Source: Bacteroidaceae bacterium (lineage in GTDB: Bacteria > Bacteroidota > Bacteroidia > Bacteroidales > Bacteroidaceae). Taken from it: a DNA stretch of 41,357 nt. The translations under genes were made by a program, and so were the position numbers. The DNA lies in NCBI GenBank assembly GCA_024398595.1, contig JAKSIX010000019.1:1-41357 (forward strand), read 5' to 3'. How positions within the stretch are numbered: position 1 is the stretch's first letter; each line of letters begins with the position of its first letter. This document shows positions 8,441-33,418 of this stretch, one piece after another. The notes under the pieces are model-generated. The model did no database searches, was not told the DNA's origin, and saw only the letters and a list, made by a program, of their open reading frames with translations.

Positions 8441-9214
8441 TCAGATTATTTCCAAAGCGTCTACCGGTATCCAGCCCTCATTGCCGTCATTCAGCCTTAT
8501 CTCAACCCATTCCTTCATGCTTGAGTCAAGAACTTTGACCTTACGCCCGTCGTGAATGATGAACAGATCTGTGCCGTTTTCGTTCGGAGTGCTTTTTACA
8601 GTAACACTTGGAGACATTATTATAGCTGTCCCATTATTGGTCAGATTGTTTTTCTGTCTGGCTGCGAAGCACATTCCCAATACTGAAATTACAAGGCTTA
8701 TTATCGATATGCCGAATGATACCTTTTTCAGTGCGGTTTTATTACTGAGAACGAATATTCCTATAGCCAGAGCCATCAATACAATGAATGATATTGCCAG
8801 TATGCTCCATTGGTTGACATTCAGCGATGTTGATAAGCGGTTTATCCAAACTGTGATAAAAAACTCATTCACAGACACTTCCTTGTCAACAATCCTACTC
8901 CTTGCCAGTTCCAGGTTGAACTGTACATCGGAGTTTGACGGATCTATCAGATATGCACGCTCATAATTCAATATAGCCTTTGCAATCTGGTCCATCTTGA
9001 AATATGCATTCCCCAGATTCATGTACAATTCCTGTGAAATACCCTGTGTAGATAATATTTCCTCATAGATAGCGGCTGCGGTGGCATAATCTCCACTGAT
9101 ATATGAACTGTCTGCCATTTCTGATGAGACATAACGTACTTCATCTGATGACTGCGAATATACCGATACAGATGATATTGATATAATTAATGTCAGTAAT
9201 AATATCTTTCTCAT
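8441..9214 (-). CDS. batE: BatE: TPR and SH3-like membrane protein
   Basis: Member of the Bat (Bacteroides aerotolerance) cluster, 257 aa from the ATG at 9214; an in-frame TTG at 9226 overlapping the batD stop is a less likely start. Signal peptide (MRKILLLTLIISISSVSVYS), a TPR pair (YMNLGNAYFKMDQIAKAILNYERAYLIDP), two transmembrane segments (roughly 135-156 and 163-183), then a C-terminal bacterial SH3-like domain ending EWVEIRLNDGNEGWIP. Such SH3 domains usually bind peptidoglycan or peptides. The gene follows batD with a gap of a few bases and precedes the PAP2-like gene. Assignment rests on domain order and on its place in the cluster. Confidence 0.88.
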   Translation of the reverse strand: MRKILLLTLIISISSVSVYSQSSDEVRYVSSEMADSSYISGDYATAAAIYEEILSTQGISQELYMNLGNAYFKMDQIAKAILNYERAYLIDPSNSDVQFNLELARSRIVDKEVSVNEFFITVWINRLSTSLNVNQWSILAISFIVLMALAIGIFVLSNKTALKKVSFGISIISLVISVLGMCFAARQKNNLTNNGTAIIMSPSVTVKSTPNENGTDLFIIHDGRKVKVLDSSMKEWVEIRLNDGNEGWIPVDALEII

Positions 9215-9222
9215 ATTCCTTG

Positions 9223-11079
9223 TCAATGTTTAAGTGAACTTTCCATCTGTCCGATGACATTTGCCGCATTCTCGTAAATGTTGTCCATTCTGCCGGAATC
9301 ATCTCCTGGGGCATAACGTGCAAATTCGCAGTCCCCCATCAGTCCTACGAACTTGGATATAAGTTCTTCAGGCACGGACTTTTTCCTGAGTTCGGACTCG
9401 ATATTGTCTTTTGACAGATCCACTACCGGTATGGCCAGCTTATCGCTGATATAACCCCATAGTGCCTTCAGTACCTCATCGTAGAACTCATCCTTCCTGT
9501 TGCTGTTCATCAGCTTGAATGCTGACTTCAGACGGCGGGCAGCAACAGAGTTTGCTTTCTTGCGTTTGGTAAGAACTACATTTGCATTGTCCTTAATACG
9601 TTTTCTGCTTAAAGAAAGGACTATGCACAGTATCAAAAGCGGTGATATGACGAGTATCCAGAAGAGTTTTGAACCATATAGAATCCTGTCGGCCCTGAAG
9701 AGACGGCCGGATGTGGTGTGGAAGCGTACGTCTTGTCCGACATACTTCAAATCTTCCTTGCTGACATATCCGGTGGCGATTTGCGGAGCATCACTCCCCT
9801 CTCCTTTTTCTACATTGATAACATATTCCTTTGTGCTGAGTGTCTTATAAGTGCCGCTCTTGACATCGAAATACTGGAAGTTCAATGCTGGTATGGTGTA
9901 TTGTCCGGGATGCCTTGGAATTGCAAGATATTCAAAGACTTTGTTGCCGGACTGTCCGGATGTCTTCAATGAGAATCTGTTCTCCACCTTCGGATCATAT
10001 ATGTCGAAATCCTTAGGATATATGATTTCCGGAGTCTTGATAAGTTTCATATTACCTGTTCCTGATACAATGACCTGTATGGTAACAGCTTCGTTGGTCT
10101 TGATATTCTCGCTGCTGATATCTGAACTGATAGAGAACTCTCCTACTCCACCCATGAACGCATCGGTCTTGCCTGACGACGGTAATGGCTTTACGTGTAT
10201 CTTGATAGGGCTGGTAACAAGATTCTTGTTTGTCTCGATATATCTTCCACCGTTGAAGAACATATCAAATATATCGTCGCTCTGCACGGCCTGTGCTATT
10301 GTAGCCTCAAATGATGTGGCTGGTATCTCCAGGTCGCCGGACTGTTGTGGGAACAGCACATACTGACTCCATACGAGTGTCTGGTAGTTCCGTCCGTTGT
10401 AATGCTCCAGCTCAAACTCCTTATTTTGCGGTAATTCTATTTCCTGTACGTGGAAATTCTTCAAATCAGGCATTTTATTGCTGATGGAGCGGAGATTTAC
10501 AAGACTATAGACCTTGAATGTCAGCAGGAAGGCCTCCTGTTCGTAAACGTCTGTCTTGCTGACTATTGCACGCATGAATAAATCTGAACCGGATATGTTG
10601 CCATTGCCTGAACCTTGCAATTGGCTTTGTGCATTCTGTTGGGTGGTTCCGGAATTCTGATTCTGCGAGCCCTGTGCCTGCTGGTTATCGTCTCTCGGCA
10701 GTACCTTTATTTTTACAGAATTGGATGTGTATGTATTATTTCCAACCTCAATGGTTGCTCCCGGTATGGTATATTCGCCTTCCTCCAATCCTACCAGAAT
10801 ATATGTGTAGGTTATTGTAGAAGAGGATTCCATTTTACCGTTTATGATAGTAGTGCTGCTCCTTGTGGATTGGCTTGGACCTGACAGGACTGAAAGCCCG
10901 TCACCGACGGACTGGAGTCTCATCTTCTTGGCATTGGAGACATTTACCGTATACGTCAGCCGGAAATTATCTCCCAAGACAACTGCTTTCGGCGCTTGAG
11001 CTGTAAAAACGACATCTGAAGCCGCATTGACGGCTATTACACACAATGTCATTATTATAAGCGAGGCGAATCTTCTCAT
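9223..11079 (-). CDS. batD: BatD: large exported membrane protein of the Bat cluster
   Basis: 618 aa with a signal peptide (MRRFASLIIMTLCVIAVNA), a long beta-rich periplasmic region with several immunoglobulin-like blocks typical of BatD, a single transmembrane helix (about 471-488, LFWILVISPLLILCIVLSL) and a roughly 125-residue cytoplasmic tail rich in Lys/Arg. A Gln/Ser/Asn/Gly-rich linker lies near residues 133-160. The tail (DEFYDEVLKALWGYISDKL ... LSKDNIESEL) resembles the tail of the BatD-like protein at 13909-14988. BatD is thought to work with the vWA proteins BatA/BatB at the inner membrane; the biochemical role is not established. Starts 12 bp after batC. Confidence 0.9.
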   Translation of the reverse strand: MRRFASLIIMTLCVIAVNAASDVVFTAQAPKAVVLGDNFRLTYTVNVSNAKKMRLQSVGDGLSVLSGPSQSTRSSTTIINGKMESSSTITYTYILVGLEEGEYTIPGATIEVGNNTYTSNSVKIKVLPRDDNQQAQGSQNQNSGTTQQNAQSQLQGSGNGNISGSDLFMRAIVSKTDVYEQEAFLLTFKVYSLVNLRSISNKMPDLKNFHVQEIELPQNKEFELEHYNGRNYQTLVWSQYVLFPQQSGDLEIPATSFEATIAQAVQSDDIFDMFFNGGRYIETNKNLVTSPIKIHVKPLPSSGKTDAFMGGVGEFSISSDISSENIKTNEAVTIQVIVSGTGNMKLIKTPEIIYPKDFDIYDPKVENRFSLKTSGQSGNKVFEYLAIPRHPGQYTIPALNFQYFDVKSGTYKTLSTKEYVINVEKGEGSDAPQIATGYVSKEDLKYVGQDVRFHTTSGRLFRADRILYGSKLFWILVISPLLILCIVLSLSRKRIKDNANVVLTKRKKANSVAARRLKSAFKLMNSNRKDEFYDEVLKALWGYISDKLAIPVVDLSKDNIESELRKKSVPEELISKFVGLMGDCEFARYAPGDDSGRMDNIYENAANVIGQMESSLKH

Positions 11080-11091
11080 TGCTTCATTATT

Positions 11092-11847
11092 TTACCAATC
11101 CTTATCAAATGTGCCCTTTGGCTGTACCTGTATGGCTTGTTTTACACGTTCCTGAACATCTTTTTCGTCCTGCATGGCGGCTTGCAGCAACTGCTCGGCG
11201 TTTTCCTTTGACATATCGCTCTCCTGCTGTTCCTGCTGGTTTTGCTGTTCCTGCTGTTCCTGTTGCTGATCTTGATTCTGTTGCTGATTCTGCTGATCTT
11301 CCTTCTGCTGCTCCTGTTGCCGCTCCTGATTCTGTTGTTGCTGATTCTGCTGGTTTTGCTGCTGCTGTTTCAACTGATGCATAGCCAGAGCGAGATTATA
11401 CCGGGTCTCGTGATCATTCGGATTATTTCTCAATGCTTCCTGATATGCGGCTATTGCCTGGGCATAGTTCTGTGCCGCCTGCAGGACAGTACCCATATTG
11501 TGGTATGTCATCGCGGCTTTCTGCTTGAAATCATTCAGCTCTTTTTCTGATGCATTTGAGTCCGATAGTCTTCTGCGTTCAAGTTCCAATGCTGTGGCCG
11601 TTTCCTGGTATTGCTCCATGGCTTCTTTGGCCTTTTGCTGATAAAGGTATGCATTTCCTAAATTGTACCCGGCATTTATATTTGAAGAGTTCTTGTCAAT
11701 AGCCTTCAGGTAGTTTTCCTCTGCTTTTATATAAAGGCTGTCGGAATACAGTTTGTTGCCTTTTCTTACATATTCCCTATCGGTCCTTTGTGCTGACAGA
11801 GCAATCGGAGCAATCAGCACCAGCATCATCAAGAATTTTCTTCTCAT
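11092..11847 (-). CDS. batC: BatC: exported TPR protein with glutamine-rich tract
   Basis: 251 aa. Signal peptide (MRRKFLMMLVLIAPIALSA), TPR units around residues 22-90 and 113-152 (AGYNLGNAYLYQQKAKEAME; YAQAIAAYQEALRNNPNDHE), then an almost pure Gln/Asn/Glu tract at 161-209 and a short conserved-looking tail ending GTFDKDW. TPR-only BatC proteins are partners of BatB in this cluster. The ATG overlaps the batB stop by 4 bp (ATGA), which indicates translational coupling. The Gln tract is coded by mixed CAG/CAA codons, so it is maintained as protein rather than by simple slippage. Confidence 0.9.
   Translation of the reverse strand: MRRKFLMMLVLIAPIALSAQRTDREYVRKGNKLYSDSLYIKAEENYLKAIDKNSSNINAGYNLGNAYLYQQKAKEAMEQYQETATALELERRRLSDSNASEKELNDFKQKAAMTYHNMGTVLQAAQNYAQAIAAYQEALRNNPNDHETRYNLALAMHQLKQQQQNQQNQQQQNQERQQEQQKEDQQNQQQNQDQQQEQQEQQNQQEQQESDMSKENAEQLLQAAMQDEKDVQERVKQAIQVQPKGTFDKDW
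11221..11367 (-). repeat. Low-complexity Gln/Asn/Glu codon tract inside batC
   Basis: Degenerate CAG/CAA/AAT/GAA codon run coding residues 161-209 of BatC. On the plus strand it appears as ctgctgttg-type triplets. It is in-frame and uninterrupted. Such tracts can vary in length between strains. Confidence 0.85.
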
Positions 11848-12884
11848 TTTTCCCCTTCATTTTCAGAGTTGAACAGGCTGATGTTACGCAATCTGGCATT
11901 GCGGCTCTCACTGATGATGAGCTCTATTATCAGAAGTGCCAGAATAATCCATGCGATAATCTGGAACTGCTCATCGAATTCTGTAAATATTGTGGTCTCG
12001 ACATCATCCTTATTAAGATGATCAAGTTCTTTCTGCAATGCTTTCTCTGCGGAGTTTGTGTTATCGACATACATATATGCGCCACCGCCAGCTTCGGCTA
12101 TATCGCGGCACATCTGTTCATTCAAGCGTGTCACGATTACATTTCCGTCCTTGTCCTTACGGAATTCTCCGTTACGGCTACCTGGTATCGGAGTACCTGC
12201 CGGAGAGCCTACTCCAAGCACATACACTACGTGTCCGCTCTCGGCGGCAGCTTTCGCTGCCTCAACTGCTCCAGCCTCGTGGTTTTCACCGTCGGTGATG
12301 ACTATGACAGCCTTTCCTACGCTCTCATTCGGCGTGAAACTCCTGGAAGCCAGAGTCAAGGCTTCCTTGATGTTTGTTCCTTGTCGTGCTACCAATGATG
12401 GAGATATTGATTCAAGGAAAATTTTTGCTGAGATGAAATCGCTTGTAATAGGTAGCTGGACGAATGCATCGCCTGCGAATACGATAAGACCTATTTTATC
12501 GTCCTGAAACTGATCCACAAGATTTGAGATGATACGTTTGGATTTTTCCAGTCTGCTTGGAGCAACATCCTCCGCAAGCATTGAGTTGGAAATGTCAAGA
12601 CAGATTATCGTCTCTATGCCTGAGCGTACTACAGTATCCTGTCTTGAACCGAATTGAGGTCTGGCAAGCAGTATTCCCGATAGTGCAATCGCGGAAAATG
12701 CAAGCCAGAATTTGATTTTCGGACGCATTTCAGACGCATCCGGCATCAACTCACGGATTAACTCATAATCGCCATATTCTCTCAACATCCTTTTACGGCG
12801 AATACTGGAGATTATATGTACCGCAACCAGAACAGGAAGCAGTAACAACATATATAAATATTCCGGATTGGCAAATCTGAACAT
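11844..12884 (-). CDS. batB: BatB: membrane vWA-domain protein
   Basis: 346 aa. N-terminal transmembrane helices (about 8-28 and 57-75), a von Willebrand factor A domain with a full MIDAS metal site (D97-I-S99-N-S101; Thr in RQGTNIKEAL; Asp in VITDGEN), and a C-terminal transmembrane helix (about 312-330). LARPQFG just before the vWA domain is typical of BatA/BatB. The vWA domain is predicted to bind a divalent cation and mediate protein contacts at the inner membrane. MoxR AAA+ ATPases commonly act with vWA proteins, and moxR is the first gene of this cluster. Starts 13 bp after batA. Confidence 0.93.
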   Translation of the reverse strand: MFRFANPEYLYMLLLLPVLVAVHIISSIRRKRMLREYGDYELIRELMPDASEMRPKIKFWLAFSAIALSGILLARPQFGSRQDTVVRSGIETIICLDISNSMLAEDVAPSRLEKSKRIISNLVDQFQDDKIGLIVFAGDAFVQLPITSDFISAKIFLESISPSLVARQGTNIKEALTLASRSFTPNESVGKAVIVITDGENHEAGAVEAAKAAAESGHVVYVLGVGSPAGTPIPGSRNGEFRKDKDGNVIVTRLNEQMCRDIAEAGGGAYMYVDNTNSAEKALQKELDHLNKDDVETTIFTEFDEQFQIIAWIILALLIIELIISESRNARLRNISLFNSENEGEK

Positions 12885-12897
12885 GCTCGCTCCTTTT

Positions 12898-13896
12898 TTA
12901 TGGAATAGTCCTTAATATTGTCTGACGGAGAAGAATGTCTCCAAGCAGGGCCAGCAGCAGTATCCACGCGAACGGCTGGTATGCCTCTTCGTTCCTGCTG
13001 AATTCCTTGACCTGAAGTTTTGTGCGCTCCATCTTGTCTATCTCTTCATATACCTCTTTCAGCTTGCTGTTGCTTGTAGCACGGTAATATTGTCCGTTTG
13101 CTGTCTGGGCAATCTGACGAAGTACATTCTCATCAATCTCAACCGGCACATTTACGTATTGTACACCCATTGAAGTCTGCATAGGGTACGGTGCTGTGCC
13201 ATTTGTGCCGACACCTACCGTATATACCCTGATATCAAAGCTTTTTGCCATCTCGGCGGCGGTCAGTGGCGAAATCTCTCCCCTGTTGTTTGAACCGTCT
13301 GTCAGCAAAATGATTACCTTGGATTTTGCCTTGCTGTCCTTGAGACGGCTGATGGCATTCACCAGTCCCATACCGATTGCGGTACCGTCGTCAATTATTC
13401 CGCGTGCGGCAATATCACTGTTCACGCTATGGAACAGATTCAGCAGGACTGCGTGATCCACGGTAAGCGGACATTGTGTGAATGCCTCTCCTGCGAATAT
13501 TGTCAAGCCGATATTGTCATTAGGCCGACCGTTTATAAATTCCGAAGCCACTAATTTTGCGGCCTCTATTCTGTTCGGCTTCAGGTCCTCGGACAGCATA
13601 CTGGTCGAAACATCCACACAAAGCATTATATCAATACCCTCAATCTCAGTGTTCTGCCAGTTGTCAGTAGTCTGAGGCCTTGCCAGGATTATCGCCAGCA
13701 TGGCCAGGGCAACCATCCTCAGAATAAAGGGAACGTGTATCAGATAGTATTTGTAGCTTTTGGAAACATTCCTGTACGCTCCTGTATCCTGTATCAGCAT
13801 TGTCGCCCCACGTTTCCTGCCCTTCATCACATACCATATTGTGAAAGGTATGATGAGAAGCATCAGAAATAAATATGCGCTGTTTGCAAATATCAT
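12898..13896 (-). CDS. batA: BatA: membrane vWA-domain protein
   Basis: 332 aa, paralogous to BatB. Transmembrane helices at about 6-22, 56-73 and near 312-327; vWA domain with MIDAS residues D95-V-S97-T-S99, Thr in DDGTAIGMGL and Asp in LLTDGSNNRG. The sequence LARPQTTDNWQNTEIEG before the domain is characteristic of BatA. It precedes batB and follows the BatD-like gene by 12 bp. Both vWA proteins here keep complete metal sites, so the pair is likely functional. I infer a role with MoxR in envelope stress or assembly from family knowledge only. Confidence 0.93.
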   Translation of the reverse strand: MIFANSAYLFLMLLIIPFTIWYVMKGRKRGATMLIQDTGAYRNVSKSYKYYLIHVPFILRMVALAMLAIILARPQTTDNWQNTEIEGIDIMLCVDVSTSMLSEDLKPNRIEAAKLVASEFINGRPNDNIGLTIFAGEAFTQCPLTVDHAVLLNLFHSVNSDIAARGIIDDGTAIGMGLVNAISRLKDSKAKSKVIILLTDGSNNRGEISPLTAAEMAKSFDIRVYTVGVGTNGTAPYPMQTSMGVQYVNVPVEIDENVLRQIAQTANGQYYRATSNSKLKEVYEEIDKMERTKLQVKEFSRNEEAYQPFAWILLLALLGDILLRQTILRTIP

Positions 13897-13908
13897 TGTA
13901 AGTCGTAA

Positions 13909-14988
13909 TTAGAAGAACAGATAATAGATTTCCTTAAGTAGCATATAAAGCGTGAAACACGATGCGGCTGCCAGAAGAATCACTCCTGCCAACAATATTG
14001 CCCTCGCCTCCTTGCTGCGCTTCTGCTCAACTACAATTTCCTTTTCCTCGGGTTCCTTTTCGGGTTCTTCCGTATTCATGGTACCTTTTACGAACTCAAT
14101 GGCTGTCAGCAGGTTACGGTCATTTTCACCCAACAGAGGTTTCATCTTTGCGAATTTCACCAAATCGGCTGTTGAGAAAAGTTCGTTCAATTCACTTAAT
14201 GAATCCTTGTCGTCAATCTCTTTAAGGTGACTGATTATCTCATCGGATGTCATTTCAGTCGCATTGAACCCGAAACGCCCGTTCATATACTGGCGAATGG
14301 CATCAGTGAGTTCTGTATAATATCGCTTTGAGTCCTCTCCGTGTGCCAGCTGCTCGGTTCTGATACGTTCAATCTCAGCCAGAGCCACCTCGTGTGCAGG
14401 TTTCTGAGGCTCGACTTTGATTATGCGTATGATAGGCTTGTCATTTTTCCAACTGATGAACAGAAATATCGCTATCACCGCTACTGCGGCGAATATAAGC
14501 AGGTAAAACGTCGCGGACTTTACATCCTGCCATTGCAACGGCTGTTCCATTATGCCCTTCGGACCGAAGAACTGATCTGAATGCAGGGTATCGACATCAA
14601 ACATATAGACCACCAGTGACAGACCGTTATCGGCCTGATACGGCTTGCCGTCAACATCTACCTCGAATGGAGGTATGTAGAAAAATGCCGAGTCAAATGC
14701 CGTAACGGTATAGCTGCGTGTTACAGACATCTTTTTCTTGTGGTCAATGTACTGTGTGTCAGTCAATATGGGAGGAATAATCTCCAGTTTATCTACAATT
14801 GTGTCGCTGAATAATGGAAACGAAATCTGCTGTCCCGCATCGCAGGCGACAGATATATGAATCTGAGTCTGTTCTCCAATCCATATTGCCACAGAGTCAC
14901 ACGATGATTCAACCACGACGCCGGCCTTGGCGCACAGGGATGCAAACGTGATGGCAACTGCTACGAATATTTTGAATAATAATCTCAT
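13909..14988 (-). CDS. BatD-like / DUF4381-like membrane protein
   Basis: 359 aa from the ATG at 14988; an in-frame TTG at 14994 overlaps the preceding stop and is less likely. Signal peptide (MRLLFKIFVAVAITFASLCA), a short beta-rich periplasmic domain, a transmembrane helix (about 160-182), a cytoplasmic helical region (HEVALAEIERIR ... YYTELTDAIRQYMNGRFG ... MTSDEIISHL), a Glu-rich linker and a second transmembrane helix near the C-terminus. The cytoplasmic region resembles the BatD tail, so this looks like a short BatD relative. It sits between the DUF58 gene and batA, the usual position for such proteins in Bacteroidales. Function unknown. Confidence 0.8.
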   Translation of the reverse strand: MRLLFKIFVAVAITFASLCAKAGVVVESSCDSVAIWIGEQTQIHISVACDAGQQISFPLFSDTIVDKLEIIPPILTDTQYIDHKKKMSVTRSYTVTAFDSAFFYIPPFEVDVDGKPYQADNGLSLVVYMFDVDTLHSDQFFGPKGIMEQPLQWQDVKSATFYLLIFAAVAVIAIFLFISWKNDKPIIRIIKVEPQKPAHEVALAEIERIRTEQLAHGEDSKRYYTELTDAIRQYMNGRFGFNATEMTSDEIISHLKEIDDKDSLSELNELFSTADLVKFAKMKPLLGENDRNLLTAIEFVKGTMNTEEPEKEPEEKEIVVEQKRSKEARAILLAGVILLAAASCFTLYMLLKEIYYLFF

Positions 14989-14990
14989 TG

Positions 14991-15860
14991 TCAATTTCTT
15001 ATTGCAAACAATCCCATTAATGCCTTGACATAGTCCTGATCTGTCCTGATAGATACGGAATCTACCCTACTCTTTGTCAATGACTCCCTACGGCGTTCCT
15101 CAGACTCAATCCATTTTCTATGGTGCGCCTCACGTATGGCCTTGGATGATGTGTCAACGTACATATCGCATCCGTTCTCAGCATCCCTTACTTTCATAAG
15201 ACCTACATCCGGCAACTCCACAGCCCTGCGGTCATATACCTGTATGGAGACAACATCGTGTTTCCTGTTTGCTATGGTAAGGGCATTCCTGTAATCGTCA
15301 TCGGTTATGAAATCACTCAATACAAATGCCGTACAGCGTTTCTTGACTGCATTTGTAAGGAATTCCAGTGGTACCGATATGTTTGTACGGGTGCTTTCCG
15401 GCACAAAATCAATCAGTTCCCTGATCAGATACAATATATGCCTGCGTCCTTTCTGAGGCGGTATGTATTTCTCCACTTTGTCGGAAAAGAATACGAGACC
15501 GACCTTGTCGTTATTCTGGATTGCCGCAAATGCAAGAGTGGCGGCAATCTCTGTCACCATATCACGCTTCATACAACCAATCGAGCCGAAATGGAGACTG
15601 TTGGATACATCGACCAACAGCATGACCGTCAGTTCGCGTTCTTCCTCATACACCTTGATGTACGGGCGGTTCATTCTGGCTGTGACATTCCAGTCTATGT
15701 CACGCACATCATCCCCAAACTGATATTCCCGTACCTCGGAGAATGCCATACCATGCCCCTTGAAGGCCGTATGGTATTGTCCTGCGAATATGTTGTTGGA
15801 CAATCCGCGTGTCTTTATCTCAATCTTGCGAACTTTTTTTATCAGCTCACTTGTCTCCAT
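14991..15860 (-). CDS. DUF58-domain protein of the MoxR/Bat cluster
   Basis: 289 aa from ATG 15860 (METSELIKKVRKIEIKTRGL), chosen over an upstream ATG at 15884 that would overlap moxR, because METxE..KKVRxIEIKTR is the usual family start. DUF58 proteins are cytosolic vWA-like proteins encoded next to moxR. Visible motifs: GHGMAFSEVREYQFGDDVRDIDW (contains the conserved RxYxxGDxxRxIxW core) and LLVDVSNS, a DxSxS-type MIDAS. The gene lies 10 bp after moxR and 2 bp before the BatD-like gene. Presumably a partner or adaptor for the MoxR ATPase. Confidence 0.9.
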   Translation of the reverse strand: METSELIKKVRKIEIKTRGLSNNIFAGQYHTAFKGHGMAFSEVREYQFGDDVRDIDWNVTARMNRPYIKVYEEERELTVMLLVDVSNSLHFGSIGCMKRDMVTEIAATLAFAAIQNNDKVGLVFFSDKVEKYIPPQKGRRHILYLIRELIDFVPESTRTNISVPLEFLTNAVKKRCTAFVLSDFITDDDYRNALTIANRKHDVVSIQVYDRRAVELPDVGLMKVRDAENGCDMYVDTSSKAIREAHHRKWIESEERRRESLTKSRVDSVSIRTDQDYVKALMGLFAIRN

Positions 15861-15870
15861 AGACACTTGC

Positions 15871-16866
15871 TCAAGGAACCTCAACCTTATTGAGAATGCG
15901 GCTGATCAGCTCATCGGAACTGACATTGGCAGCTTCTGCCTCGTAGGACAGTCCGATACGGTGACGCAGTACATCGTGTGCGATGGCGCGTACATCCTCC
16001 GGAACGACATAGCCTCTGCGCTTGATGAAGGCGTATGCACGTGATGCCAGTGCCAGATTGATGGATGCACGTGGAGAACCGCCGAATGAGATGAGTTCCT
16101 TTATCTCCTTCAGACCATATTTTTCCGGATAGCGTGTTGCAAACACAATATCAGTAATGTACTGCTCGATTTTCTCGTCAAGATATACCATCTCGACTAC
16201 GGCTCTTGCATTCAGGATGTCGTCAGTCTTCATCACAGGGCGGATTGTACCTACCTCATGATGAATCTGCTGATGGATTATCTTCTTCTCCTCATCCAGT
16301 TTCGGGTAATCGATGATAGCCTTGAGCATAAAACGGTCAACCTGAGCCTCCGGCAGCGGATAAGTACCTTCCTGCTCTATAGGATTCTGTGTAGCCAGTA
16401 CGAGGAATGGCTTTGGCAGTGCAAATGTTTCCTTGCCAAGTGTTACCTGACGCTCCTGCATAGCTTCAAGCAGTGCGCTCTGCACCTTGGCAGGTGCGCG
16501 GTTTATTTCATCGGCCAGAATGAAGTTGGCAAACACAGGACCTTTCTTTACCTGGAATGTCTCGTCTTTCTGACTGTAAATCATTGTTCCTACCACATCG
16601 GCAGGCAACAGGTCAGGGGTGAACTGTATTCTGCTGAAACTGGCATCAATAAGTGAAGCCAAAGTCTTGATTGCAAGTGTCTTGGCCAAGCCGGGCACAC
16701 CTTCAAGGATAATATGTCCATCGGAAAGAAGTCCAATCAACAATGATTCTACAAGGTGTTTCTGGCCGATTATCACCTGATCCATTCCGGCCATCAGGTT
16801 AGTTACAAACGCGCTTTGACTCTCTATACGCCCGTTTAATTCCCTAATATCGAAATTCTCGCTCAT
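15871..16866 (-). CDS. MoxR-family AAA+ ATPase, first gene of bat operon
   Basis: 331 aa, normal MoxR length. Walker A GVPGLAKT (about 76-83), Walker B ILADEINRAPAKVQSALLEA with catalytic DE, the MQERQVT strand, sensor-1 region LATQNPIEQEGTYPLPEAQ and the DRF arginine region. MoxR ATPases act as chaperones in metal insertion or complex assembly, usually with vWA-domain partners, here DUF58, BatA and BatB. The following genes are closely packed on the same strand, which makes this the promoter-proximal gene of a nine-gene operon. Confidence 0.95.
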   Translation of the reverse strand: MSENFDIRELNGRIESQSAFVTNLMAGMDQVIIGQKHLVESLLIGLLSDGHIILEGVPGLAKTLAIKTLASLIDASFSRIQFTPDLLPADVVGTMIYSQKDETFQVKKGPVFANFILADEINRAPAKVQSALLEAMQERQVTLGKETFALPKPFLVLATQNPIEQEGTYPLPEAQVDRFMLKAIIDYPKLDEEKKIIHQQIHHEVGTIRPVMKTDDILNARAVVEMVYLDEKIEQYITDIVFATRYPEKYGLKEIKELISFGGSPRASINLALASRAYAFIKRRGYVVPEDVRAIAHDVLRHRIGLSYEAEAANVSSDELISRILNKVEVP

Positions 16867-28580: not shown

Positions 28581-29642
28581 TCAGAGTCTGGAATTGGTAT
28601 CGCTGACGGCGGCAATCAGAGCATCAATATTCTCCTTCTTCGCACCCATAGGCAGTCCGCCGCCTGTACTCAGCATCAGACCGTGATGTGAACCGTTGGC
28701 TGCAATGTAATTGCTGACAACCTGCTTTGTGGTATCATATACCTCCTGCGGGTTATTGCCTGTCAGGAGCATAGGCGGTACATTCCCCATCAGCACAACC
28801 TTACCGCCTGCCAGGCTGCGTGATTCTGCAATATCCTGTATGTGCGTAAAGTTGAATACGTCAACTCCCATTTCCTCAAGGTGAGGATAGCAGGAATTGG
28901 ATGTAAAGTCATTGTGGAAATAATGATGTACCTCAGGAAATGCCGAGAAAATCTCCTTCATATACGGCATACAGAGTGTCGTGAAGTCATCAGGGCTGAA
29001 GTAGCCGCAGACATCATCAAGCACCATTATAGCCTTGGCCGTCTTTACGTTCTCCAGCTGGGCCTCAAGCCACAGTTTTACGCATTCGGTAGTTTTGCGC
29101 AGCAATGAGTCGGCAGCCTCAGGGTTAATCATCATAAACATCAGCAGCTGTGTCACTGTGAAGATGTGCGAAGCCACCGTAAACGGGCCACGCGCACATA
29201 CCATATAGACCTGTTCCCCTTCCGCCTCCATCATAGGCTGATACAGACGCTGCTGATTCAGCATAAACGGCATCATCCCGTCACGTTTGGGATCCGGCAG
29301 GCTCAGGTTCCTGAATATTGACTCAGCATTATCCAGATCCTCAGTCAGCGGATGCAGATGTGGCAGATTGTCGTCAAAGAAGCACATCGGACATCCGAAT
29401 CCGCTCGGCTCTGCCGTCATTCCATACTCAACCCACCAGCCCGGTATGAATACGGCCTCCGGAAAATCCTTGATTATTTTAAGATTGTCTTTGACAAACA
29501 CATCGTTACGTGCATAATAATCAATAAACGTGTGGCCGCAATAACCCGGAATCCACGGACTGTCAGCAATAAATACTACAGGAATCTTACTGTTTTTATG
29601 ATTGATGGTTTCCTCCATCAGCTTAATCTGGTCAGCATTCAT
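28581..29642 (-). CDS. URO-D-fold protein lacking the zinc-ligand cysteines
   Basis: 353 aa, uroporphyrinogen decarboxylase (URO-D) superfamily TIM barrel, of the divergent group distinct from heme HemE. The region matching the methyltransferase His-x-Cys motif reads HND (243-245), and the position of the third ligand reads STGGGLP (Gly328), so the zinc site of MtaA/CmuA-type methyltransferases is absent. Other superfamily features remain: ARGPFTVAS (150-158), VLMGNVPP (283-290). It follows the MtaA-like gene by 20 bp. Possible roles: a substrate-binding or non-zinc methyltransferase subunit. No signal peptide, so cytosolic. Confidence 0.82.
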   Translation of the reverse strand: MNADQIKLMEETINHKNSKIPVVFIADSPWIPGYCGHTFIDYYARNDVFVKDNLKIIKDFPEAVFIPGWWVEYGMTAEPSGFGCPMCFFDDNLPHLHPLTEDLDNAESIFRNLSLPDPKRDGMMPFMLNQQRLYQPMMEAEGEQVYMVCARGPFTVASHIFTVTQLLMFMMINPEAADSLLRKTTECVKLWLEAQLENVKTAKAIMVLDDVCGYFSPDDFTTLCMPYMKEIFSAFPEVHHYFHNDFTSNSCYPHLEEMGVDVFNFTHIQDIAESRSLAGGKVVLMGNVPPMLLTGNNPQEVYDTTKQVVSNYIAANGSHHGLMLSTGGGLPMGAKKENIDALIAAVSDTNSRL

Positions 29643-29662
29643 ATCTATATCGGTTTTTGGTT

Positions 29663-30652
29663 TTACAATTCATATCCGGCGGCTTTGAAGAAAGCCTCAA
29701 TGTTACATACCGGTGACATCGGTGGTACGTCGCATCCTGTTGACAGCACAAAATTATCATGTCCTTCCGCTATTTCCAACAGTTCGGAAACCTTCGCGGA
29801 AACCAGTTCCGGCGTACCCATCTTCATGACACCTACAGGATCGACATTACCCATCACAACTATGTCTGACGGCACTTGCCTGATTACTTCCGCCATATCA
29901 ATGCTGTTGCCGAAATGAAGTGCTGCGGCTCCGGATGCTGCCATCGCGTCTGTACATTGTCCCGAATTGCCGCAATTATGGAGAATCACGGCAAAAGAGT
30001 CATCCTGCACGTCATCGACTATACGTCTGACATATTCCGTTGAGTATGCCAGACAGTCATCATTTGACAACAATCCTGCTGCAGGCTCAGCCATCACTAC
30101 CCCTGCCGACCCGGCATCTTTGATTGCACGGACATATCCGCACAGGAATTCAGTGCATTTGTCCAATAGCTTTCGGGCAGTACCCGGCTCAATATACATA
30201 GCCATCATAAGCTCCGTCATATCATACAGACGGCCGGCAAGACTGAAAGGACCTATACAGCCACCGAACAGTGGCTGGGCAAGGGCTTCTGCCGCTAATC
30301 TGTTTGCTTTCAGATATTCCGGAACACGCGCCGTATCGAGCGATGGTATCTGCAACCTGCCAACATCATCGGCCGACTGCAGCAGACGGCCGGATACGGT
30401 AGGCACCTCACCCTGCTCAAACACCACACTTGCGCCAAAGGCCTCTGCCTCCACCGACAAATCCATTATTGTAGTTGATGCCACAGAATATGGAAAACGT
30501 CTGTACAATGCCATAACAGCATCACAGTGCGTCTGCCCGTCTGTGACGGCATCAATCACATGCCGTCCTATCAGTTCAATGCCGGGATGTGTCATAATCG
30601 GCAAGACGGGCACTCCCGACCTGTGCAGCAACTCTGCTATCGCTTTATTCAT
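29663..30652 (-). CDS. MtaA/CmuA-like corrinoid methyltransferase (URO-D fold)
   Basis: 329 aa from ATG 30652 (MNKAIAELLHRSG); a GTG at 30661 overlapping the GH67 stop is an alternative. Cobamide methyltransferase branch of the URO-D family: THPGIELIGR, TTIMDLSVEAEAFGASVVF (Asp64 region), FGGCIGPFSLAGRL, GNVDPVGVMKMGTP. The zinc ligands His225-x-Cys227 (ILHNCGNSGQ) and Cys307 (LSTGCDVPP) are intact. Family members move methyl groups between corrinoid proteins and thiols, or take them from O-methyl substrates. Placed directly after a GH67 alpha-glucuronidase, which suggests a methylated sugar acid as substrate; that is inference. Confidence 0.85.
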   Translation of the reverse strand: MNKAIAELLHRSGVPVLPIMTHPGIELIGRHVIDAVTDGQTHCDAVMALYRRFPYSVASTTIMDLSVEAEAFGASVVFEQGEVPTVSGRLLQSADDVGRLQIPSLDTARVPEYLKANRLAAEALAQPLFGGCIGPFSLAGRLYDMTELMMAMYIEPGTARKLLDKCTEFLCGYVRAIKDAGSAGVVMAEPAAGLLSNDDCLAYSTEYVRRIVDDVQDDSFAVILHNCGNSGQCTDAMAASGAAALHFGNSIDMAEVIRQVPSDIVVMGNVDPVGVMKMGTPELVSAKVSELLEIAEGHDNFVLSTGCDVPPMSPVCNIEAFFKAAGYEL

Positions 30653-30657
30653 CAGTA

Positions 30658-32745
30658 TCACTTTATGAGTCCGTACTCAGGAAGTGCATCCGGTGCCGGT
30701 GTCTCGTAATTGGATATACGGAGACGGAACTTGCGGAGATCATCGTACGAATGCTGCACGGGTGAGCAGTCCGATGGCAGTTCCATACCTGAAAACTGTT
30801 GGAAATAGCCTATGCAGGCATCCCTCCACCACAATGCATCTTTTGCCTGACGTATCAGTTTGTCGTTTATCTGATTCCAGCGCCAGTCATCAACGTATTT
30901 GCGTACCGATGCCCAAGTGTCAATATAAGCTGCGGCCGCGTTGATTCCATGCTGATATGTATGACACAGCGCATTCCAGAGTGTTTCGCCGTTTTTCATC
31001 GTATAATCCCACGGCAGATGGTGAAACCAGAGAATCAATTCCTCCGGACAGGTCTCTACGTTGTCATACAGCGATTTGAGAGGCTCGTGATACTGTGCCA
31101 CAGCACCACTTCCATTCATTGTGCGGTCAAATCCTATGCCATCGGCCGCAGCTTTGTGATAGAATGTCGGAGACCAGTCGCGCCGCATGGACTGTTCCCA
31201 TGGGCCGGGACCGTAATGGCCCGCACCGGCAAAGATATGATGCAGTCCGAGCGGCATCTCATAATGTACAGTATTCTCACGTGACGCAAGCATCAGTTCC
31301 GTAATCGGCCTGACGAACTTGGAATTGTCAGTGAATGTCTGCTTCAGCCATTCATCGGCAATCTGTTCGGATGTGAGTTCAGGATTCCAGGCCATACGGC
31401 CGAAAGCATACCAGTTGGCCTGTGCAAAATGATGTCCGCACCAGTTGACACTGTCTCCTATATTGGCTACACCGGCAATTGCAGACATACCATATTTCAG
31501 AACTTTTCCTTCTGTAACCTTGGCTACTGTAGAGCCCTCACCTCTCATATATGTATCGCTGTCCAGACATTCTTTCCACATAGGATGCAGATAAACCAGA
31601 TGATTGGAGTGTCCGAGATATTCCTGTGTGACCTGTACTTCAACCATCATCTTGGTTTTTTCCATCTGGCCGAACAACGGGCTGAACGGCTCGCGCGGTT
31701 GGAAATCTATAGGCCCGTTCTTTATCTGGATAATCACGTTACTGTGGAACTGGCCGTCAAGAGGCATGAATTCATCCACAGCCTGCATGGCGCGGTCTTC
31801 GGCTGTCGCGGCATATACAAATGCACGCCACATTACGATACCGCCGTAAGGTTTCAATGCATCGGCAATCATATTTGCACCGTCAGCGTGTGTACGTCCG
31901 TAATCCTGAGGACCTGACTGTCCTTCGGAATTGGCCTTGACCAGGAAACCTCCGAAATCAGGTATGATTGAATAAATCTCTGCTACCTTGTCATTCCAGA
32001 ACCGGATAACGTCCGCATCCAGAGGGTCGGAAGTACCCAATCCGGCCAGATGCTTCGGAGCGGCAAAGTTCAGTGAGAGATATACCTTGATTCCGTATGG
32101 ACGGAAAATATCAGCCAGTACCCTGACCTTTTCCAGATACTCCGGTGTCAGCATACAGGGATCGGCATTGACATTATTCAGAACTGTGGCATTTATGCCG
32201 ACAGAAGCATTTGCACGGGCGTATTCCTCATATTCTGGACGAACCCTGTCTGGCAGTTCCTCCCATTTCCACAATGACTGTCCGGCAAACCCGCGCTCGA
32301 CTGTCAGGTTGGGATTGTCCCAATGGTTCAGGATACGTACGTCAAATGCCGGTATTTCAGTCACTTGACCATCAGACATGATGCCATCCGTCTCTTGACG
32401 GCGCAACAGGTCATAGACACCATACAGGACACCGGTTTCCGTATTGGAATAAATGTGGATATCGTTTTTGGAGAACTCTATCCGATATCCTTCATTTCCA
32501 AGTTCAGGTTCAGCATCATTCAGCAGGAGACAGGAAACTGTCTGCTTCCCTTTCCAGTAATTATGAATCTCATTGTCAGCTATTGACATTGTAGATTTAT
32601 CCTCGGACAAAATCTGTGCCTTTCCTTCCGACAAGGAATGGAACCAGAGATTATGTCCGTTCACGTCACAGAGTTGTCCTGTTTTGCCGCATGATGATAT
32701 CATACCGGCAATTGCCACGATGAAAGTAAGTTCGCTAATTCTCAT
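30658..32745 (-). CDS. GH67 alpha-glucuronidase, lipoprotein
   Basis: 695 aa from ATG 32745; the longer frame begins with a TTG at 32772 inside the YigZ end. Residues 1-19 are a lipoprotein signal (MRISELTFIVAIAGMISSC), so the enzyme is anchored in the periplasm or outer membrane; the following GKTG is not an export signal. GH67 hallmarks: general acid in VKANSEGQSGP (Glu274), paired catalytic carboxylates in IKNGPIDFQPREP (Asp347) and VTQEYLG (Glu375). Their spacing (73 and 28) equals that of the characterised Cellvibrio enzyme as I remember it. It releases (4-O-methyl-)glucuronic acid from glucuronoxylan oligosaccharides. No SusC/SusD pair is nearby. Confidence 0.95.
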   Translation of the reverse strand: MRISELTFIVAIAGMISSCGKTGQLCDVNGHNLWFHSLSEGKAQILSEDKSTMSIADNEIHNYWKGKQTVSCLLLNDAEPELGNEGYRIEFSKNDIHIYSNTETGVLYGVYDLLRRQETDGIMSDGQVTEIPAFDVRILNHWDNPNLTVERGFAGQSLWKWEELPDRVRPEYEEYARANASVGINATVLNNVNADPCMLTPEYLEKVRVLADIFRPYGIKVYLSLNFAAPKHLAGLGTSDPLDADVIRFWNDKVAEIYSIIPDFGGFLVKANSEGQSGPQDYGRTHADGANMIADALKPYGGIVMWRAFVYAATAEDRAMQAVDEFMPLDGQFHSNVIIQIKNGPIDFQPREPFSPLFGQMEKTKMMVEVQVTQEYLGHSNHLVYLHPMWKECLDSDTYMRGEGSTVAKVTEGKVLKYGMSAIAGVANIGDSVNWCGHHFAQANWYAFGRMAWNPELTSEQIADEWLKQTFTDNSKFVRPITELMLASRENTVHYEMPLGLHHIFAGAGHYGPGPWEQSMRRDWSPTFYHKAAADGIGFDRTMNGSGAVAQYHEPLKSLYDNVETCPEELILWFHHLPWDYTMKNGETLWNALCHTYQHGINAAAAYIDTWASVRKYVDDWRWNQINDKLIRQAKDALWWRDACIGYFQQFSGMELPSDCSPVQHSYDDLRKFRLRISNYETPAPDALPEYGLIK

Positions 32746-32764: not shown

Positions 32765-33418
32765 TTATGCAATTATCATATCCGGAGTACGCTGCGCTTC
32801 CGTAAGTTTGCCTATACGTTCCTGTACAGATCTGACATTGGACAGACGTGTACGGATAACCGTCTTGCAGTCAAACAGTCTGCCGGGCTGACTGTCGTGT
32901 CCGAACTGACCATAATCCTGTGATGCAATATTCAATCCCATATCCTTGACTATGCGCATAATATCGTTCATCACCGGATATGAGAACAACACTGTAATGT
33001 CTTTCTCAACGAAGCGCTCCACAATTTCAGATGCTTGTATAACGTCCGCAGCCGCCCTGCGGTATGCCTCAATCAATCCGCTTGTACCCAGCTTCACACC
33101 ACCGAAATAGCGCACTACAGCTATCAGTATATCAGTCAGATTGTTACTGTTAATCTGCCCTATTATCGGCTTGCCGGCAGTTCCTGACGGCTCTCCATTG
33201 TCATTTGCTCTCCATTCCTGACGTTCTGCCCCCAGCATATACGCATAGCACACATGACGCGCATCGTAATATTCCTTCTGTATGGCTGCAATATGCTCTT
33301 TTACCTCATCGGCACTACTTACAGGAAAAGCGAACGATATGAAACGGCTGCGCTGCTCCGTGAACTGGGACTCCACTTTCCCTTCAATTGTACGATAAGT
33401 GTCGATAACAACTTCCAT
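32765..33418 (-). CDS. YigZ/IMPACT-family protein
   Basis: 217 aa. UPF0029/IMPACT domain: RSRFISFAFPVSS, YYDARHVCYAYMLG, NDNGEPSGTAGKPIIGQI and VVRYFGGVKLGTSGLIEAYRRAA are the family signature, followed by a C-terminal DUF1949-like ferredoxin-fold domain. Cytosolic; the human relative IMPACT affects translational control, the bacterial role is unclear. Located 28 bp after DUF1015 and 19 bp before GH67, so it is likely part of the same transcript although not related in function. Confidence 0.92.
   Translation of the reverse strand: MEVVIDTYRTIEGKVESQFTEQRSRFISFAFPVSSADEVKEHIAAIQKEYYDARHVCYAYMLGAERQEWRANDNGEPSGTAGKPIIGQINSNNLTDILIAVVRYFGGVKLGTSGLIEAYRRAAADVIQASEIVERFVEKDITVLFSYPVMNDIMRIVKDMGLNIASQDYGQFGHDSQPGRLFDCKTVIRTRLSNVRSVQERIGKLTEAQRTPDMIIA

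Follow-up and report, generated by a model that had tools for sequence, protein, structure and literature searches.

The operon and its two URO-D-fold proteins

The window analysed here is a whole contig (C11; JAKSIX010000019.1) of 41,357 nucleotides, taken from a Bacteroidaceae genome (GCA_024398595.1; G000 below) of 2.21 Mb that is 98% complete. On its minus strand, a single operon of three genes encodes a GH67 alpha-glucuronidase and two proteins with the fold of uroporphyrinogen decarboxylase (URO-D), hereafter UROD1 and UROD2, which are considered below as candidate parts of a pathway removing the methyl group of 4-O-methylglucuronate (MeGlcA), a common side group of plant xylan. The operon and the gene preceding it are as follows (L and G numbers denote loci and genomes throughout):

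30658..32745, minus strand (open reading frame possible from 32772): GH67 alpha-glucuronidase, probable lipoprotein (PF07488, PF07477, match to structure 1gqi)
29663..30661, minus strand: UROD1, URO-D-fold protein with His228-Cys230-Cys310, proposed methyl-corrinoid:thiol methyltransferase (MT2; PF01208)
28581..29642, minus strand: UROD2, URO-D-fold protein with His243-Asn-Asp245 and Gly328, proposed 4-O-methylglucuronate:corrinoid methyltransferase (MT1; PF01208)
32765..33418, minus strand: YigZ/IMPACT-family protein, upstream of GH67 (PF01205), with no evident pathway role

A first-pass annotation, made from the sequence alone, had given the coordinates, the gene order and gaps of a few to 20 bp, all of which proved right on re-reading: GH67 and UROD1 overlap by 4 bp if the GTG start of UROD1 is used (the next ATG leaves a gap of about 5 bp), while 20 bp separate UROD1 from UROD2. 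The order GH67-UROD1-UROD2 is found again in relatives, and the YigZ/IMPACT gene is a conserved neighbour of GH67, being also located upstream of it in L127-L131, L139 and L147.

The GH67 protein matches PF07488 (492 bits) and PF07477 (301 bits), as well as the alpha-glucuronidase structure 1gqi (E 4.7e-211), and its residues E283, D356 and E378 align with what we take to be the three catalytic acids of the family, in agreement with the first-pass annotation. A lipobox-like ISSC after a signal-like start was recognised by eye. The enzyme thus appears to be a sound, ordinary member of GH67, of which only the neighbours are unusual. In our sample of 201 Bacteroidaceae genomes, GH67 is carried by 97, including all 12 of the window genus.

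In Pfam, UROD1 (203.6 bits) and UROD2 (137 bits) match PF01208 only, and they are the sole matches to this family in the window genome, so that the second protein, too, is of the URO-D fold, as first annotated. Both stay under the cut-offs of the five NCBIfam families that they match (HemE, MtaA, MtbA, MtaA/CmuA and PRK06252). For HemE (TIGR01464, cut-off 302.95 bits), UROD1 reaches 81.1 bits and UROD2 60.2, which rules out uroporphyrinogen decarboxylase itself; for MtaA/CmuA (TIGR01463, cut-off 235.4 bits), the scores are 112.4 and 64.2. HemE is nonetheless the top sequence match of both proteins among solved structures, and the top fold match of UROD2. The structure model of UROD2 shows the fold only and cannot prove a substrate; likewise, the absence of CdmB (a solved corrinoid methyltransferase related to O-demethylases) among the fold matches listed for UROD2 carries no weight on relatedness.

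According to PMC10418091, the S-methyltransferases of the UroD superfamily have a His-Cys-Cys pattern, of which the O-methyltransferases lose one or both cysteines. In UROD1, the H-x-C and the C align with those of 4ay7 (the Methanosarcina methylcobalamin:coenzyme M methyltransferase) and are kept in all 22 aligned UROD1 sequences, a pattern of the S-methyltransferase type whose zinc binding is predicted; these residues are the zinc ligands H225, C227 and C307 of the first-pass annotation, numbered 228, 230 and 310 from the GTG. UROD2 has neither cysteine, the positions being held by a carboxylate or a non-ligand (H243, D245, G328), as in the O-methyltransferases. Its H-N-D is present in 48 of 48 aligned sequences and G328 in 47 (one gap), from an alignment that omitted five of the 52 loci described below (L166, L174, L175, L176 and L178; short, split or devoid of an open reading frame), and H-N-D recurs in 20 of 21 further UROD2 pieces (one gap). 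This cysteine-free site is conserved across Bacteroidales, Clostridiales, Chloroflexota and Acidobacteriota.

The first-pass annotation had also called for a B12-binding DxHxxG protein to be sought in the genome, and had regarded a genome without corrinoid methyltransferase parts as fatal to its idea. Such a protein (hereafter Corr) is encoded outside the window, on another contig (G000:C89:49759-50463): with 234 amino acids, both B12-binding domains (PF02310 and PF02607) and the motif DLHDIGKN, it has the features of the corrinoid proteins of O-demethylases.

Gene neighbourhoods of UROD2 and UROD1

A search of genome contigs with the UROD2 alignment yielded 52 loci, of which up to 10 kb were examined on each side; most neighbours beyond those scanned with Pfam were named by phmmer matches to a scanned relative. 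These loci come from 23 Bacteroidales (mostly of herbivore guts), 4 Clostridiales, 22 Acidobacteriota, 2 Leptolinea (Chloroflexota) and 1 Verrucomicrobia, based on phylum assignments that we partly presumed from the names. A second sample of 121 genomes from one acidobacterial family, 32 of which have UROD2, contributed 20 loci outside this set. A GH67 gene is located no more than 10 kb from UROD2 in 21 of the 52 loci (13 Bacteroidales, 1 Clostridiales, 7 Acidobacteriota) and near it in 12 of the 20 (in L224 as a fragment at the edge of the stretch), whereas about 1% or less would be expected per locus, a value that is an estimate (one copy or so per genome of 2–6 Mb) and not a measured null. 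To the concern, raised with the first-pass annotation, that the pair might occur equally often without glucuronidases, the answer is thus a linkage in three phyla, next to many loci that have none. Recurrence across phyla rules out chance neighbours. Moreover, against the window enzyme, the GH67 proteins encoded close to UROD2 in Acidobacteriota and Clostridiales score 484–530 bits, versus 615–1413 bits for those of Bacteroidales, and these lower scores, together with differing gene order and orientation, make it unlikely that the pairing stems from one recent transfer.

Other neighbours point the same way, since (4-O-methyl)glucuronate is the common substrate of GH67, UxaC and glucuronyl esterase. 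Within the 52 loci (L178 having no UROD2 open reading frame in this count), UROD1 occurs in 21 (weakly in the acidobacterial L167, 76 bits), Corr in 16, GH10 in 8 (two weak), an MR_MLE relative in 5, UxaC in 2 and glucuronyl esterase in 2. UxaC directly adjoins UROD2, with gaps of 34 and 54 bp, in a Leptolinea locus (Pfam) and in a Clostridiales locus (phmmer match to the former, 136 bits). The glucuronyl esterase of L156 (Pfam) overlaps UROD2 on the opposite strand, and that of L174 (phmmer, 702 bits) adjoins a split UROD2. Besides, a PF14587 GH30-type glycosidase, perhaps a glucuronoxylanase, directly adjoins UROD2 in L026:3457-5957 and L139:9674-12522, and in Leptolinea (L159:1787-11219 and L175) three URO-D-family proteins stand with genes of an oligopeptide-type ABC transporter, followed by UxaC in L159; possibly more than one methyl-sugar demethylase is gathered there.

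The corrinoid protein accompanies UROD2 as well. Of 27 distant UROD2 genomes, 24 encode a relative of Corr with 42% identity or more (from the 29 distant loci, L178 and L176 were left out, the latter having the same assembly prefix as L155). In the acidobacterial family, where the Corr cut-off (E 1e-38) was chosen to exclude MetH, Corr is present in 29 of the 32 genomes with UROD2 versus 39 of the 89 without (Fisher p 1.9e-6, kinship ignored). The 20 further loci feature MR_MLE in 11, Corr in 10 (L236 would add an eleventh) and the activase RACo in 9. In L234, MR_MLE, SDR, GH67, UROD2, Corr, RACo and a protein with a homocysteine S-methyltransferase domain lie in a row, and L231 and L235 have GH67, UROD2, Corr, RACo and the same kind of homocysteine-type protein. 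Altogether, three kinds of second methyltransferase accompany UROD2: MtaA-like (Bacteroidales, and weakly L167), homocysteine type, and pterin type, while the neighbour at this position gave no family in L232, L238 and L243.

In the Bacteroidaceae sample, UROD1 is found in 16 of the 201 genomes (E 1e-20). The UROD2 search matches 15 genomes at E 1e-10, of which five have a true UROD2 (72–100% identity), all from the window genus, the ten others being cross-hits to UROD1. Of the 16 UROD1 genomes, 15 have a relative of Corr at 46% identity or more and, among the matches listed, no relative elsewhere exceeds 41%. Six of the 11 genomes with UROD1 but without UROD2 carry GH67; still, none of the 11 has it in the 12–20 kb around UROD1 (some stretches being one-sided at contig ends), which rules out UROD1 as the glucuronidase-linked part. 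UROD1 therefore travels with Corr, whereas it is UROD2 that is tied to GH67. The first-pass annotation had coupled the two, as a pair, to the glucuronidase: this coupling stands for UROD2, but not for UROD1, which on its own is generic.

In all 11 UROD2-less genomes, a short PF02965 protein directly adjoins UROD1, the other neighbours including Corr, RACo, further URO-D proteins, GH29, GH95 and RhaT. One such cluster, from another genus (L037:2488-10722, G149), comprises a GH29 fucosidase, a corrinoid protein, UROD1, a PF02965 protein, a RhaT-like carrier, GH95 and another URO-D protein, and is a candidate demethylation system for methylated fucose or rhamnose. A second one (L034:5445-12221, G180) aligns a URO-D protein, an SSF symporter, a corrinoid protein, UROD1, a PF02965 protein and RACo in a row. 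Elsewhere in Bacteroidaceae (L065-L070 and L071-L073), a corrinoid protein adjoins or is fused to a 357-residue protein for which Pfam scans in L067 and L068 gave no match, and an SSF symporter, identified by the scan of L068, lies nearby; these, too, look like corrinoid methyltransferase systems. The fusion of L073 also includes a homocysteine S-methyltransferase domain (PF02574), and two other Bacteroidaceae genomes have Corr frames of similar length.

The window genome itself holds a 246-residue protein with a partial MetH-activation domain (PF02965; G000:C1:73489-74229), not linked to the operon, which follows genes resembling aspartokinase/homoserine dehydrogenase, phosphoglycerate mutase and threonine synthase (L191:7490-13111; by eye). 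It also has a MetH-like protein and a MetF-like gene (named by eye; PF02310 and PF02965 matches), a B12-binding match in a 720-residue frame, which by its length may be methylmalonyl-CoA mutase, and a fourth match below cut-off. UxaC is encoded in all 12 genomes of the genus, this one included, and no importer for the sugar acid was identified in the window genome. The APH-kinase and MFS genes located beside Corr find no support as pathway parts: the 52 UROD2 loci show no APH match and MFS matches of at most 32 bits. As for the rest of the window, positions 8441-16866 hold what look like genes for a MoxR ATPase and for von Willebrand and TPR proteins (named by eye from translations), resembling a Bat aerotolerance operon.

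A proposed route for 4-O-methylglucuronate

From these genes, folds, motifs, linkages and co-occurrences, we consider it probable that the window genome encodes a three-part corrinoid O-demethylase for MeGlcA. The two URO-D proteins seem to have different jobs, UROD2 on the O-methyl donor side, as a probable MeGlcA methyltransferase, and UROD1 on the acceptor side: because of its S-methyltransferase His-Cys-Cys and its co-occurrence with the corrinoid protein, UROD1 is likely the second methyltransferase, probably acting on a thiol such as homocysteine. Briefly, GH67, as a probable lipoprotein outside the inner membrane, would free MeGlcA from xylan fragments, and some carrier would take it up. 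UROD2 would then convert MeGlcA and Co(I)-Corr into glucuronate and methyl-Co(III)-Corr, the glucuronate being passed on to UxaC, while UROD1 would use its His-Cys-Cys zinc site to take the methyl group off the corrinoid and transfer it to a thiol, of which homocysteine, yielding methionine, is the likeliest. The separate MetH-activation-like protein would keep the corrinoid active. The notion of the first-pass annotation, that GH67 releases MeGlcA and that the URO-D proteins demethylate it through a corrinoid, is largely supported by this comparison; the substrate and the acceptor, the direction of methyl transfer, the uptake, the cellular location and the activation of the corrinoid are inferred from sequence.

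Homocysteine is favoured as the acceptor since acidobacterial loci encode homocysteine methyltransferase domains and one Bacteroidaceae genome has such a domain (PF02574) fused to Corr. Taken further, the system could be a split methionine synthase in which MeGlcA replaces methyl-tetrahydrofolate, with UROD2 in the role of the folate domain, UROD1 in that of the homocysteine domain, and separate corrinoid and activation proteins, an extension that we put forward tentatively, at somewhat under even chances.

Several observations weigh against this reading. GH67 is missing from 31 of the 52 loci (some on short contigs) and from 8 of the 20 further acidobacterial ones; in particular, no GH67 is seen in the stretches examined of eight ruminant-forestomach loci of Bacteroidales, in which UROD2 is accompanied by Corr, a PF02965 protein and UROD1 (six of them have a clear GH10). 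The 52-locus search required two near-exact active-site peptides and is thus biased towards conserved copies; loci of one clade cannot be counted as independent, and contigs of metagenome-assembled genomes are short. In the window genome, Corr is not linked to the operon and lies beside the APH-kinase and MFS genes, it also occurs in the 39 acidobacterial genomes without UROD2 counted above, and G189 (87% complete) has the UROD1-UROD2 pair but no close Corr. The reactivase that the first-pass annotation hoped for did not turn up: the window genome, although 98% complete, has no match to the RACo/RamA type (PF14574), which is present in some relatives. In G104, a genome with UROD1, UROD2 and Corr, the PF02965 protein was not found, and short PF02965 proteins also occur in five of the seven sampled genus members without UROD1; as the MetH-like frames of such members are short, MetH may use this protein too. 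Finally, UROD2 scores 40 bits against CdmB versus 88 bits against HemE.

Among the alternatives, the closest keeps the same corrinoid O-demethylase but lets the methyl group go to tetrahydrofolate instead of a thiol, and thereby into one-carbon metabolism and MetH. Transfer to tetrahydrofolate is ascribed to bacterial systems in PMC10418091, and in L224 a pterin-binding methyltransferase (NF005719, 303 bits vs. a cut-off of 259) stands between UROD2 and RACo. Furthermore, SHMT adjoins UROD1 in L030 (Pfam), four more loci having an unannotated frame of 426 residues in the same place, and the window genome has the MetF-like and MetH-like genes mentioned above. Yet, no pterin-binding protein appears among the annotated neighbours of UROD1, the S-methyltransferase pattern of UROD1 is invariant, and L231, L234 and L235 have a homocysteine S-methyltransferase domain in place of the pterin type, which leaves this acceptor rather unlikely.

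UROD2 might also demethylate another methyl donor of the plant cell wall, such as a methoxylated aromatic or a different methylated sugar, with GH67 as a mere pathway neighbour: the known O-demethylases of the superfamily use methoxylated aromatics (PMC13222342), many UROD2 loci are devoid of GH67, and some neighbours are plainly unrelated (e.g., ribosomal protein S1 in L165). Nevertheless, phyla that are far apart repeatedly show GH67, UxaC or glucuronyl esterase next to UROD2, and no aromatic-pathway family was seen among the 44 chosen neighbours in UROD2 loci scanned with Pfam, so that we hold such a donor to be improbable. Chemistry other than methyl transfer, e.g., uronate decarboxylation, as suggested by the Pfam name (PF01208 also includes uroporphyrinogen decarboxylase) and by the top structure matches to HemE, is very improbable, given HemE scores of 81 and 60 bits, far under the cut-off of 303, the linkage and co-occurrence with corrinoid protein, RACo and methyltransferase domains, and the His-Cys-Cys of UROD1.

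Significance and relation to known systems

The UROD2 family, widespread and with a conserved active site, is a direct candidate for the MeGlcA demethylase of gut and soil bacteria. If so, a frequent methylated sugar of plants would be exploited by a new route, the breakdown of hemicellulose would be connected with B12 and methionine, sugars would join aromatics as donors in corrinoid O-demethylation, and UROD2 could serve as a marker of genomes able to use MeGlcA fully; were the split methionine synthase also true, xylan-eating bacteria of guts and soils would build methionine from the methyl groups of hemicellulose. Enterobacter asburiae reportedly releases methanol from methylglucuronoxylose, a report that our literature search did not find. 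No MeGlcA-demethylating enzyme was named in the titles or abstract beginnings of the matches listed (most subscription papers lie outside this search), nor was any sugar-acting O-demethylase of the UroD superfamily named among these matches.

The window GH67 shares both domains and the aligned acids with known alpha-glucuronidases, and differs from them only in its gene neighbours. The closest parallel for the whole system is provided by the three-component corrinoid O-demethylases of acetogens (MtvB, OdmB, VdmB; Cdm for chloromethane), as described in PMC13222342: a first methyltransferase of the UroD superfamily, a small corrinoid protein and a second methyltransferase are common to both, and their RACo-type activase is shared with some UROD2 and UROD1 loci. 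In contrast, the donor proposed here is a sugar acid, the similarity to CdmB is low, and the second methyltransferases that can be named are MtaA-like or of the homocysteine type, with the one pterin type of L224. UROD1 belongs to the same family as the MtaA/MtbA methylcobamide:coenzyme M methyltransferases and the Mlp proteins found in type 1 mlp clusters (PMC10418091), and has its His-Cys-Cys at the same positions, but it falls under the NCBIfam cut-offs and is linked to a glycan gene. Type 1 mlp clusters unite Mlp2, Mlp3, corrinoid protein and Ram, while here no corrinoid gene adjoins the pair and the genome has no RACo. Finally, MetH and the MtgC/MtgD glycine betaine system (PMC12478193) resemble the proposed system in their corrinoid module, separate donor and acceptor methyltransferases, activation-like domain and link to methionine; the differences are that the donor here would be a xylan sugar and that the modules would be separate proteins of the URO-D fold.

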